DNA of 64,000 nucleotides from Flavihumibacter fluminis. Its GTDB lineage: Bacteria > Bacteroidota > Bacteroidia > Chitinophagales > Chitinophagaceae. Under the pieces are notes generated by a model. That model was given only the letters and a program-made list of their open reading frames with translations, was not told where the DNA came from and made no database searches. This document shows, piece after piece, positions 29,060 to 32,371 of this stretch (within the stretch, counting starts at the first letter, position 1; every line of letters starts with the position of its first letter). The stretch spans positions 248,001 through 312,000 of the forward strand of contig NZ_JAKEVY010000001.1 in NCBI RefSeq assembly GCF_021491375.1, given 5' to 3'. A program made the position numbers and the translations under genes.

Positions 29060-30961
29060 ATGGTAGATTCATTCGAGAAGATTCCCGTCAGGATTTTCAA
29101 TAACCTGAAGGAAGGCTCCCTGTTTATTGCCAACGAAATTGCAGCTGTTATCCGTCAAAAACAGGCGGAAGGGAAAAAATGTGTATTGGGACTCGCAACC
29201 GGCTCCTCCCCCAAAACTGTTTATGCTGAATTGGTTCGGCTACACAAAACAGAAGGACTCAGTTTCAGCAATGTGGTAACTTTTAACCTGGATGAATACT
29301 ATCCCATTGATCAGGATGCGCTGCAAAGTTATAACCGTTACATGCGCGAACACCTGTTCAATCATGTTGACATCAAACCCGAAAACATTCATATCCCCAA
29401 TGGCGAACTGCCTAAGGAGGAAATCAAAAAACACTGTGCCGATTATGAAGCCATGATCGAAGAAGCTGGTGGTATTGATGTGCAGATCCTCGGCATTGGA
29501 AACAATGGTCATATCGGTTTCAACGAACCTGGCTCCAGCCGGTTTTCCAAAACCAGGATGATCACCCTCGACAACTCTACCAGAATTGCCAACTCTTTTG
29601 AGTTTCCCAATATTTCAGAAGTACCCCGCCTGGCTGTTACCATGGGTATTGACACCATTCTGAAAGCACGCAAGATTTACCTGATGGCATGGGGGCCCAT
29701 GAAAGCCCCTGTGGTGCAGAAAGCAGTGGAAGAACTGGTTACAGAACAAATCCCGGCTTCGCTCCTGCAGCAGCATAACGATACCGTATATGTGCTGGAT
29801 GAAATGGCGGCATCTGAGCTTACGCGTTTTAAATCACCCTGGTTAACAGGTGATATCGAATGGACGCCTGCGATGGTAAAAAAAGCCGTGGTAAGTATGG
29901 CATTGAAAACCGGCAAACCCATACTGGGATTGACCAATAGCGATTATAATGAATATGGCCTGGGAGATCTGCTGGTTGAAAAAGGCGATGCTTATGAAAT
30001 CAACCTGCAGGTATTTTATATGCTGCGCGATGGCATCACAGGATGGCCGGGTGGTAAACCCAATGCAGTTATTCCTGCTCACCCGGAGCGTTCGCTGCCT
30101 TACCCCAAAACATGCCTGATCTTTTCTCCGCACCCGGACGATGATATCATCAGTATGGGTGGCACTTTCATGCGCCTGCACGATCAGGGGCACGATGTGC
30201 ATGTGGCGTATCAAACCAGTGGCAACATTGCTGTTACGGATGAATTTGTAACCCGCTTTATCGACTTTGCCGTAGGCTTTGAAGAAATTTCGGGTATTGA
30301 TAGCAGTAAGTCGCGCGAAATTCTCACCGCTGCGCATAAATTCCTCGCGAATAAAAAACCAAGTGAAAGCGATACTGCAGAGATCCGGGCCATCAAGGGA
30401 CTGATCCGCAGAGGGGAAGCAAAAGCTACCTGTCGTTATGTTGGTATCAAGGATGAAAATGTACACTTCCAGAACCTGCCCTTCTATGAAACAGGTCGGG
30501 TGGAGAAAATGCCCATGGGCGAAGAAGATGTTCGAGTAACCATGGAACTGCTGAGAAAAGTAAAACCCCACCAGGTGTATTGCGCGGGTGATCTGGCAGA
30601 CCCGCATGGTACACATAAGGTTTGCCTGGATATCGTATTTGAATCCCTGCGTCGCATCAAAGCCGAAGGTGATGAGTGGATCAAGGATTGCTGGGTTTGG
30701 TTGTACAAGGGAGCATGGCAGGAGTGGAACATTGAAGAAATTGAAATGGCCATCCCAATGAGTCCGGATCAGGTGATCAAGAAAAGACATGGCATTTTCA
30801 TCCACCAGTCACAGAAAGATATGGTGCCTTTCCAGGGCTCCGACTCCCGCGAATTCTGGCAGCGTGCGGAAGACCGCAATGCACAAACAGCCAAGCAGTA
30901 TGCGCAGCTTGGCTTAACGCAATACGCTGCTATGGAAGCATTTGTGCGCTGGCATTATTAA
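29060..30961 (+). CDS. nagB: Glucosamine-6-phosphate deaminase-like protein fused to LmbE/PIG-L domain
   Basis: A 633-residue two-domain protein. Residues about 1-260 are NagB-like: GLATGSSPKTVY, FNLDEYYPI (Asp 78) and GIGNNGHIGFNEPGS. The position of the ring-opening Asp of E. coli NagB (Asp 141) is Asn 149 here, while His 151 and the following Glu remain. Residues about 350-630 are LmbE/PIG-L-like: FSPHPDDDIISMGG and DLADPHGTHK provide the zinc ligands of this deacetylase family. Together they suggest N-deacetylation and deamination of an amino-sugar phosphate. The fused form is known in Bacteroidota; the activity of each domain is inferred. It is downstream of the sigma gene by 24 bp and may be partly read through from it. 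Confidence 0.9.
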   Translation: MVDSFEKIPVRIFNNLKEGSLFIANEIAAVIRQKQAEGKKCVLGLATGSSPKTVYAELVRLHKTEGLSFSNVVTFNLDEYYPIDQDALQSYNRYMREHLFNHVDIKPENIHIPNGELPKEEIKKHCADYEAMIEEAGGIDVQILGIGNNGHIGFNEPGSSRFSKTRMITLDNSTRIANSFEFPNISEVPRLAVTMGIDTILKARKIYLMAWGPMKAPVVQKAVEELVTEQIPASLLQQHNDTVYVLDEMAASELTRFKSPWLTGDIEWTPAMVKKAVVSMALKTGKPILGLTNSDYNEYGLGDLLVEKGDAYEINLQVFYMLRDGITGWPGGKPNAVIPAHPERSLPYPKTCLIFSPHPDDDIISMGGTFMRLHDQGHDVHVAYQTSGNIAVTDEFVTRFIDFAVGFEEISGIDSSKSREILTAAHKFLANKKPSESDTAEIRAIKGLIRRGEAKATCRYVGIKDENVHFQNLPFYETGRVEKMPMGEEDVRVTMELLRKVKPHQVYCAGDLADPHGTHKVCLDIVFESLRRIKAEGDEWIKDCWVWLYKGAWQEWNIEEIEMAIPMSPDQVIKKRHGIFIHQSQKDMVPFQGSDSREFWQRAEDRNAQTAKQYAQLGLTQYAAMEAFVRWHY

Positions 30962-31040: not shown

Positions 31041-31114
31041 GGCTCCGTAGCTCAACTGAATAGAGCATCTGACTACGGATCAGAAGGTTTCAGGTTTGAA
31101 TCCTGACGGAGTCA
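31041..31114 (+). tRNA. tRNA-Arg (anticodon ACG)
   Basis: A full cloverleaf can be drawn. Acceptor GGCTCCG pairs with CGGAGTC (one G-U), discriminator A at 31114; D stem GCTC/GAGC; anticodon stem TCTGA/TCAGA with loop CTACGGA, anticodon ACG; T stem TCAGG/CCTGA with loop TTTGAAT. CCA is not encoded. The first base of the anticodon is expected to be inosine, reading CGU, CGC and CGA. It has its own promoter and terminator, so it is a single-gene transcript. Confidence 0.97.
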
Positions 31115-31119
31115 CAAAG

Positions 31120-31146
31120 AGGTCGCATAAAATGCGGCCTTTTTTT
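31120..31146 (+). terminator. Rho-independent terminator of tRNA-Arg
   Basis: AGGTCGCAT (31120-31128) pairs with ATGCGGCCT (31132-31140) through nine positions, one of them G-U, around a three-base loop. Six T follow. It lies 5 bp past the tRNA. Confidence 0.85.
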
Positions 31147-31199
31147 ATTTATCTCCCCACAAAGCTCAGTTAAAACACCCTTTTTTAAAATTCGAAATC

Positions 31200-31214
31200 T
31201 TCACAATTTGTGAA
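31200..31214. promoter_or_regulatory. Perfect 15-bp palindrome, likely HigA operator
   Basis: TTCACAATTTGTGAA has perfect 7-bp arms around one T. It lies 26 bp before the ATG of the broken higB, just upstream of a -7-like TACATTTA (31222-31229). HigA-type antitoxins repress their own operon through such palindromes. Confidence 0.55.
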
Positions 31215-31240
31215 CTTTTGGTACATTTACCTTAGTTCAT

Positions 31241-31443
31241 ATGAAAGTCAGGCTGATAAAAGAAAAAACAATCAAAGATTTTATAGCTGGGAATAGTGGC
31301 AGTAAGGCATCGTTTGAAGAATGGCTTTCAAAAGTAAAATTGGCAGCACAAGTATCAGGTTGTATGTATGCTGGTTAGGCACTCATGCTGAATACGACAA
31401 ACTTTGCAAACTGAATAAACAATATACAGTTTTTGACTATTAA
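31241..31443 (+). pseudogene. Degraded HigB-family toxin gene (internal deletion and frameshift)
   Basis: From ATG 31241 the frame reads MKVRLIKEKTIKDF followed by SFEEWLSKVK, the N-terminus of HigB-type mRNA interferases, then hits TAG at 31376. In another frame the family's C-terminus appears: LYVCWLGTHAEYDKLCK, ending at TAA 31441-31443, just before the antitoxin. The middle of the toxin, normally holding the FNIxGNxYRL core, is absent. About 59 native residues are recognizable against roughly 95-100 in the family, so some 40 residues were lost, together with a frame change near 31345-31365. The protein cannot be a working toxin. The adjacent antitoxin gene and operator look intact. Confidence 0.8.
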
Positions 31444-31453
31444 AATACAGGTT

Positions 31454-31903
31454 ATGGAAATATTGAAATATAAAGTGATTAAATCTGACAAACAATACAA
31501 AGAATATTGCCAGATACTTCATGATTTGGACTTTTCTACAAAAAGGAAAACCAAAACAATAGAAGATGAAATGGAATTGCTCACTTTTTTGATTGAAAAA
31601 TACGATGAAGAACACCGCAACTTTGAAATACTTGAACCTATCCCTTTACTAAAGTCTTTGATGAAAGACCATAAAATGAAAGCGGTTGATTTAGCTAACC
31701 TTTTGAATGTAAGTGAAGGCTTGGTTTCAGATATGCTTAATTACAAAAAGGGATTATCTAAAGAAACCATTCGAATTCTATCTGAAAGATTTAAGCTTAA
31801 CCAGGAGGCGTTTAATAGACCTTATGAATTAAAAGTGAATATAAAACCTAAACTCAAACACTCAAAAGTGACGCGTTCCAGAAAAAAACTGGCTGGAGTT
31901 TAA
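31454..31903 (+). CDS. HigA-type antitoxin, XRE-family helix-turn-helix protein
   Basis: A 149-residue protein with an N-terminal acidic/helical region (1-60) and an HTH at about 66-117 (KMKAVDLANLLNVSEGLVSDML). The basic C-terminal tail has KLKHSKVTRSRKK. In Bacteroidota this type follows higB and acts as antitoxin and repressor. The ATG at 31454 is preferred; a TTG at 31433 would add seven residues and lie within the toxin remnant. It starts 10 bp after the toxin remnant's stop. The cognate toxin is broken, so this is an orphan, probably still binding the palindrome at 31200-31214. rlmH follows within 3 bp and may depend on this transcript. Confidence 0.8.
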   Translation: MEILKYKVIKSDKQYKEYCQILHDLDFSTKRKTKTIEDEMELLTFLIEKYDEEHRNFEILEPIPLLKSLMKDHKMKAVDLANLLNVSEGLVSDMLNYKKGLSKETIRILSERFKLNQEAFNRPYELKVNIKPKLKHSKVTRSRKKLAGV

Positions 31904-31906
31904 CTT

Positions 31907-32371
31907 ATGAAAATAATCTTGTCAAGTTTTGGTAAACAACAGGAAGCTTCCACCAAAGAGGCGCTGGATGATTTTACCCGTCGGGTGACACGCTATTTTC
32001 CTTGCGAATGGAAACTCCACCCTCCCTCCAAACTAACCGATCCAACCCTGATCAAAAAACAGGAAGCACAGATTATCCTGCAACAGCTCCAGCCGGATGA
32101 TTACCTGGTATTGCTGGATGAAAGAGGAAAAAACATCAGTTCTCCCGAGCTGGCTGAACTTATCCAGGGAAGAGCCAATGAAAGCAGGCGGCAACTGATC
32201 TTTTTAATTGGCGGCGCCTATGGAGTGGATAGCAGTGTGCAGCAGAGAGCCAATTTCACCTGGAGTTTATCCAAACTGGTTTTCCCGCACCAGCTGGTTC
32301 GATTGCTGCTGGCAGAGCAGGTGTACCGGGCCTGCACCATCCTGCGCAATGAAAAATACCATCATTCCTAG
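31907..32371 (+). CDS. rlmH: 23S rRNA (pseudouridine1915-N3)-methyltransferase RlmH
   Basis: A 154-residue SPOUT-class methyltransferase that methylates pseudouridine 1915 in helix 69 of 23S rRNA. Visible are YLVLLDERGKNISSPELA, FLIGGAYGVD (SAM loop) and the C-terminal knot WSLSKLVFPHQLVRLLLAEQVYRA, ending NEKYHHS as in the family. Length is standard. It starts 3 bp after the antitoxin stop, with the rhomboid gene downstream behind its own promoter. Confidence 0.96.
   Translation: MKIILSSFGKQQEASTKEALDDFTRRVTRYFPCEWKLHPPSKLTDPTLIKKQEAQIILQQLQPDDYLVLLDERGKNISSPELAELIQGRANESRRQLIFLIGGAYGVDSSVQQRANFTWSLSKLVFPHQLVRLLLAEQVYRACTILRNEKYHHS

Follow-up and report, generated by a model that had tools for sequence, protein, structure and literature searches.

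Orphan antitoxins, which are open antitoxin genes without a working toxin beside them, have been described in the Klebsiella pneumoniae complex, where the available part of one report names degrading toxin-antitoxin pairs as one source of such genes (PMC7192599). Anti-addiction and regulation are given as possible roles of orphan antitoxins in the accessible portions of that report and of a second one, although these roles are yet to be shown to be common (PMC7354431, PMC7192599). HigA proteins from elsewhere bind palindromes at their own promoters, according to the available parts of two papers (PMC6987408, PMC11006873), and the first of these, again in its available part, reports that HigA of Pseudomonas aeruginosa controls not only its own operon but also mvfR (PMC6987408). 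The closest solved structures to the HigB proteins considered here are those of the E. coli K-12 and Shigella HigBA pairs (PDB 5IFG, 5YCL, 6KML, 6KMQ). The locus described below lies in a 64,000-nucleotide stretch of DNA from Flavihumibacter fluminis, the whole of which we call the window. With a probability of roughly 0.8, we regard it as a young, self-repressing relic of toxin-first loss in a horizontally acquired higBA module, the HigA of which is without a present role.

Organization of the locus

The features of the locus and of its immediate neighbours are as follows.

31041-31115, forward strand: tRNA-Arg (ACG), found by ARAGORN; left neighbour of the inserted module, outside the module
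31199-31215, no strand assigned: conserved inverted repeat CTTCAC-AATTT-GTGAAC, probable HigA operator, located with a matrix from 41 intact loci
31222-31229, forward strand: candidate promoter element TACATTTA, resembling the Bacteroidota -7 box; based on sequence, with similar boxes upstream of the toxin ATG in several relatives
31241-31339, forward strand: HigB N-terminal remnant, 33 codons, from the alignment with relatives L003 and L004 (L003 HigB residues 1-38 at 84%)
31340-31346, forward strand: deletion junction TTGGCAG, from the alignment with L003 and L004
31342-31443, forward strand: HigB C-terminal remnant, 33 codons and stop, in another frame than the N-terminal remnant, from the alignment with L003 and L004 (L003 HigB residues 69-110 at 81%) and a match to the PF09907 profile
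31454-31903, forward strand: higA, intact, 149 aa, with two N-terminal helices, an HTH at about 62-120 and a tail at 129-149 predicted to be disordered; from the open frame, relatives and predicted structure
31907-32371, forward strand: rlmH (PF02590, E 4.4e-48); right neighbour of the inserted module, outside the module

The consensus of the Bacteroidota -7 box is TAnnTTTG. The gene order is toxin remnant and then antitoxin, higA standing directly after higB in a two-gene unit, and the stop of the remnant lies 10 nt before the higA ATG, the same spacing as in L003. Near the tRNA, a long gene at 29060-30961 reads, on sequence judgement only, as glucosamine-6-phosphate deaminase with a deacetylase-like part.

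A single deletion in the toxin gene

An earlier note on this DNA had described a HigBA-type pair in which the N- and C-termini of the toxin are readable in different frames and the RNase core is missing, and had attributed this state to one internal deletion, not to slow decay; comparison with relatives bears out each of these points. The N-terminal piece (MKVRLIKEKTIKDF...FEEWLSKVK) begins at the ATG at 31241, and its frame continues beyond the junction to a TAG at 31376-31378, giving 45 aa in total. The C-terminal piece (CWLGTHAEYDK...FDY) ends at the TAA at 31441-31443 in a different frame. When the intact HigB of L003 (L003:3664-3993; 110 aa, 82.6 bits against PF09907) is compared with the window genome, exactly two matches are obtained, both at the locus, with residues 1-38 matching the N-terminal piece at 84% (E 1.2e-13) and residues 69-110 matching the C-terminal piece at 81% (E 3.8e-18). 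Alignment with related loci, which the note had proposed and for which L003 and L004 served as references, assigns both pieces to one higB: the DNA of the window has a single 130-bp gap between flanks that are 82-85% identical, and two reading frames result because 130 is not a multiple of 3. An origin of the pieces in unrelated genes is ruled out, one gene of a relative spanning both of them in the protein match and in the DNA alignment.

The deletion has removed approximately codons 34-77, including nine of the 18 residues that are invariant among 13 intact relatives (W37, A50, D51, R59, I64, G66, N67, Y75 and F77). The retained invariant column I89 is occupied by leucine in the window, and the remnants do not carry the full set of residues invariant in the subfamily. 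Against PF09907, the N-terminal piece gives no match and the C-terminal piece reaches 19.8 bits, below the cut-off of 27 (profile positions 58-73, E 9.6e-4). The missing block is edged in L003 by TTAGCAG on the left and TTGGCAG on the right, and in L004 by TTAGCTG and TTGGCAG, while the window has one TTGGCAG; these imperfect 7-bp repeats suggest slippage between short repeats. Over the approximately 65 codons of both toxin pieces, changes specific to the window amount to 5.5 non-synonymous and 3.5 synonymous, compared to 1 non-synonymous and 10 synonymous changes specific to L003, and so the loss of the toxin need not be very recent. The remnants show some wear, but little, and still align with few changes. 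In L004 itself, the HigB frame is shifted in a run of A near codon 9 (L004:3663-3700), perhaps because of decay, sequence error or phase variation.

Search for a second toxin in the genome

The earlier note had also suggested a search of the rest of the genome for an intact HigB, and none was found with the PF09907 profile or with the HigB of L003. The profile gave no matches at E <= 1e-3 in the 4.71-Mb assembly (completeness 99.99); because this search also misses the fragments in the window, it speaks only for fuller copies. The L003 HigB found nothing in the window genome besides the two pieces, and NCBIfam yielded no HigB family. A second HigB in the genome is rejected within the reach of the PF09907 and L003 HigB searches. 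On contig C38 of the same genome (L002:676-1746), apparent ParD-/ParE-like frames precede a truncated HigA-like stretch interrupted by in-frame stops, which constitutes a second toxin-less HigA-like remnant.

Insertion site and probable origin

The G+C content of 31241-31903 is 0.323, compared to 0.478 and 0.486 for the flanking genes. Fourteen genomes of the same genus were asked for rlmH, of which 12 gave the locus and two gave none. A 100% identical tRNA-Arg precedes rlmH in six of these 12 loci, and the tRNA-Arg/rlmH junction is empty (gap <80 bp) in three of the six that can be read (L150, L153 and L158) and filled by other genes in the remaining three (L149, L159 and L160). In the other six loci there is no tRNA in the stretch examined, L157 beginning at a contig end. 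All 12 same-genus rlmH loci are without a match to higA or to the toxin remnant, and an old loss inherited within the genus is rejected on this count together with the six readable junctions. The closest relatives of HigA are found in other genera, and the higBA module most likely came horizontally, as a putative AT-rich insert between tRNA-Arg and rlmH.

The junction, which corresponds to 31116-31906 of the window, is variable in the genus; as judged from sequence, L149 has a gene like DinB there, L159 one for a membrane protein and L160 one resembling serine hydrolases. Within the same genus, Flavihumibacter profundi (L139 / L026) retains only residues 71-133 of a HigA of this subfamily, at 79% identity, and no toxin. 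This remnant is on a different contig from rlmH, and appears to have gone further along the same path of decay.

Recurrence of toxin loss in relatives

Among 394 genomes of the family, HigA was found at E <= 1e-20 in 61 genomes and 63 places, window included, all 63 of which were classified. One genome was used per species, and draft or metagenome assemblies are common among the relatives. Of one further group of loci, the counts include L138, L139 and the toxin-only places L141-L143 and leave out the rest. A full open toxin is present in 41 of the 63 places. Toxin DNA is missing and HigA is open in 13 (the window, L085, L088, L105, L110, L118, L121, L127, L128, L129, L130, L133 and L138), as judged from toxin pieces sought only in the 900 nt before higA at E < 0.05, so that small or distant pieces may be missed. 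Four places have a frameshifted toxin (L079, L081, L106 and L108), for which sequence errors are possible, three have damage in both genes (L111, L135 and L139), and two are unjudgeable (L091, at a contig end, and L120, with a run of N). The HigA core is broken in none of the 41 toxin-intact places, where the frame is always open for at least 126 codons. Moreover, none of the 51 subfamily toxin matches (E <= 1e-24) is without HigA except for three cut by contig ends: 48 are on contigs of HigA places, and the other three leave the contig with the start of HigA visible.

In the HigA tree (FastTree), several nodes of which are weakly supported, none of the 13 toxin-deleted places is the sister tip of another, perhaps implying a recurrent state that does not last. 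L138, when compared with its intact neighbour L137, has the anatomy seen in the window, with both ends kept and the middle gone, at other breakpoints. Decay of this kind has occurred repeatedly and independently in related bacteria. Within one family genus, which has 20 places in 17 of 35 genomes, there are 13 full subfamily toxins; two of its places repeat L118 and L129, L174 is without toxin and repeat, HigB is interrupted by an insertion in L165 and frameshifted in L175, L177 runs into a contig end, and L180 belongs to another HigB branch. The insertion in L165 (G424:C83) is of about 200 bp and breaks HigB near codon 44, HigA being open. A class-wide draw of 395 genomes outside the family gave 23 places in 21 genomes, with 17 intact toxins, one that is nearly full (L221) and five that are broken or missing with HigA open (L202, L212, L216, L217 and L220); the control-site repeat described below passes in L212 and L220. 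The family of genome G036 is represented by two genomes only, with four places found and left unclassified.

A probable control site

An inverted repeat of the type GTTCAC-N5-GTGAAC was sought before the toxin ATG in the 41 toxin-intact family loci, and is present with at most two mismatches in 33 of them, compared to 0, 0 and 1 of 41 in three displaced stretches. Its position in the family is mostly 33-36 nt upstream of the higB ATG, and the site in the window is centred 34 nt upstream. A matrix was built from these repeat sites with the window excluded, the 1% shuffle threshold being 10.9 bits (520-nt stretches); 40 of the 41 intact family loci pass it, these being the same loci that were used to build the matrix. 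The repeat at 31199-31215 scores 21.2 bits and is the best site in the 64-kb window, where the runner-up has 11.4 bits, and the maxima of 20 shuffled 64-kb windows fall between 7.8 and 17.8 bits. Further from the window, the repeat passes in 11 of 13 intact loci of the one genus surveyed within the family and in 10 of 17 outside the family, that is, less uniformly and not universally. It is kept in 10 of the 13 toxin-deleted places, the exceptions being L121, L127 and L128 (for L128 the sequence covered only 286 nt upstream of higA), which might be more orderly than careless decay would give. The site is a predicted palindromic operator at the promoter, of the kind that marks an autoregulated type II toxin-antitoxin module.

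Perfect copies of TTCAC-N5-GTGAA number 11 in the window genome, compared to three for a control pattern. The ten copies other than that of the locus score 4.9-16.3 bits, four of them above 10.9 (10.9-16.3), and these scores are within reach of chance for a genome of this size. Given a maximum of 16.3 bits against 17.8 in shuffled windows, there is no clear second target among the perfect copies.

The HigA protein and its constraint

HigA had been described in the earlier note as undamaged, in agreement with a frame that is open over 149 codons from the ATG at 31454 and 85% identical to the best relative. A scan of bacterial genomes with this protein gave 25 loci, the best being L003 (85% identical) and L004 (82%). 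It scores 15.2 bits against TIGR02607 (cut-off 47.7) and 21.5 bits against HTH_26 (cut-off 22), and because it falls short of the curated sequence model we name it HigA-like by its pairing and fold. An AlphaFold2 model (pLDDT 69.8, pTM 0.42) has E. coli and Shigella HigA at the top of a fold search (E 1.0e-3 to 5e-3), at an rmsd of 10-11 over the whole length that leaves the domain arrangement uncertain; when only the HTH part is considered, other HigA proteins match at an rmsd of about 2. With modest confidence, the model suggests an N-terminal domain followed by an HTH, as in E. coli HigA. The C-terminal tail (129-149) is predicted to be disordered.

Selection was assessed with a codon model for 75 HigA tips, using an alignment trimmed to 147 of 293 columns from which L139, L135, L111 and L091 were dropped. 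Toxin-intact tips have an omega of 0.048, compared to 0.058 in 14 toxin-deleted tips (the 13 above together with L174) and 0.049 in those with a frameshift. Setting all 14 deletion orphans equal to the intact tips gives an LR of 1.4, compared to 263 when they are set to 1. Omega on internal branches is 0.14 against 0.048 on the tips, and the fit of the model is therefore imperfect. For the whole window HigA gene omega is 0.21 (LR 15.9 against intact tips and 12.8 against 1), whereas codons 1-125 have 0.061 against 0.040 in intact tips (LR 0.5), with an omega of 1 rejected (LR 21), and the tail has 1.44. The core of the window HigA is under the same constraint as in intact pairs, and the excess change is nearly all in the tail. 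Because tip branches include time before the deletion, this constraint is no proof of present use. The fast tail was considered as a special property of the window HigA and rejected, since several tips with an intact toxin (L117, L104, L095 and L137) have fast tails as well and the tail is predicted to be disordered. Five orphans with close relatives, picked by eye (the window, L085, L118, L129 and L138), have an omega of 0.119 compared to 0.040 in seven relatives (LR 11.4). Individual values for L118, L129 and L138 come from per-tip fits, which are unreliable on long branches. Without the window, the comparison is 0.084 to 0.041 (LR 3.7), and the excess gives some sign of relaxation, largely from the window.

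Interpretation

The reading as a relic of toxin-first loss would run as follows. A type II higBA module, toxin then antitoxin, would have been inserted between tRNA-Arg(ACG) and rlmH, and a single deletion of 130 bp, with slippage between the two imperfect 7-bp repeats as its probable cause, took away the middle of higB; with the middle gone and the frame shifted, no toxin would be made. All of higA remains in place, as does the inverted repeat in the promoter region, and HigA is most likely still produced at a low, self-repressed level, its dimer binding the repeat over the promoter if it behaves like known HigA proteins. As far as the searches reach, such a HigA would have nothing to neutralise in the window genome. 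Toxin before antitoxin would be the only safe order of loss, and the locus is probably a young relic that may offer, at most, latent protection against the HigB of an incoming plasmid.

The orphan HigA might instead have been selected as an anti-addiction gene that neutralises a plasmid or phage HigB, its own toxin having been shed as a cost. HigBA pairs of the same subfamily (HigB 59.8-60.9% to L003) are present on plasmids of Spirosoma linguale, Spirosoma oryzicola and Adhaeribacter swui, and these three Bacteroidota plasmids suggest a possible use for an antidote. The constrained core and the retention of repeat and higA in 10 of 13 toxin-deleted loci also favor this explanation, and because the constraint on the core spans the whole branch, before and after the deletion, a present function of HigA is conceivable. 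We nevertheless consider selection for anti-addiction unlikely: the orphans stand at tree tips, none as the sister tip of another, and do not form old clades; the tail of the window HigA has diverged fast; no relative of the subfamily HigB emerged from viral contigs scanned with two peptide patterns; and all 17 phage records that matched stay below 60% (best 41.6%). It is likewise doubtful, for the family at large, that toxin-less HigA plus operator is a repeatedly evolved, selected functional unit in Chitinophagaceae, a standing antidote against plasmid or phage HigB.

Recruitment of the orphan as a free regulator that acts on the transcription of other genes in the host would suit an HTH protein with a constrained core, and has a parallel in P. 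aeruginosa HigA, which acts on mvfR besides its own operon in the available part of the report (PMC6987408). The 11 perfect palindromes, against three for the control, are consistent with this idea, four of them besides its own scoring 10.9-16.3 bits. None of the other ten comes near the 21.2 bits of its own site, however, 16.3 is within the shuffled range (17.8 in 64 kb), and the second-best site in the 64-kb window has only 11.4 bits, which makes such recruitment very improbable. Even less credible is an assembly error in which an intact higB was collapsed by 130 bp. Short imperfect repeats do stand at the edges of the block, but an imperfect 7-bp repeat is far too short for assembly collapse; moreover, 12 other places in the family are without toxin DNA in other ways, and L138 has the same anatomy relative to L137 with other breakpoints.

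The 13 family places without toxin DNA but with an open antitoxin amount to a set of natural experiments, for which the reverse state was not found. Such a toxin-first asymmetry would be predicted for a HigB that does real harm to these bacteria. In addition, orphans with close relatives that keep the toxin provide a system in which to ask whether a lone antitoxin is selected or merely slow to go.

Comparison with known systems

A profile of the intact relatives' HigB covers positions 3-98 of 110 of the HigB from E. coli K-12 and Shigella (E ~1e-8). E. coli HigA comes first in the fold search (6kmq_B, E 1.0e-3), and the HigA profile aligns its N-terminal and HTH parts together (E 0.018). The window differs in that its HigB is without the core, so that there is no pair, and its HigA bears a predicted disordered C-terminal tail, with weak sequence similarity and a large rmsd to the E. 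coli protein. Among the PADLOC models, PD-Lambda-2 is similar in that L003 HigB matches component A (E 7.5e-22) and HigA matches component B at positions 3-116 of 402 (E 2.5e-18). The window HigA has 149 aa compared to about 400, however, and is not assigned to component B, and its neighbours are a tRNA and rlmH.

Our literature search, the partial coverage of which means that it says little, returned no paper combining Flavihumibacter with toxin-antitoxin systems, and none that brings an operator together with an orphan antitoxin and an internal deletion in the toxin. The ccdO157 and hok-sok copies described in the available part of PMC2654758 are likewise chromosomal modules decaying after integration, but they belong to other toxin families, whereas the window has one internal deletion with the control site and antitoxin whole. 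The orphans of the K. pneumoniae complex share with the locus an open antitoxin without a working toxin beside it; the available part of that report describes a comparison of flanks and coding sequences, and contains no operator or orphan-selection test (PMC7192599). The locus is an ordinary case of the known orphan antitoxins that arise from toxin-first decay, and the useful aspect is that toxin loss recurs with the control site retained.
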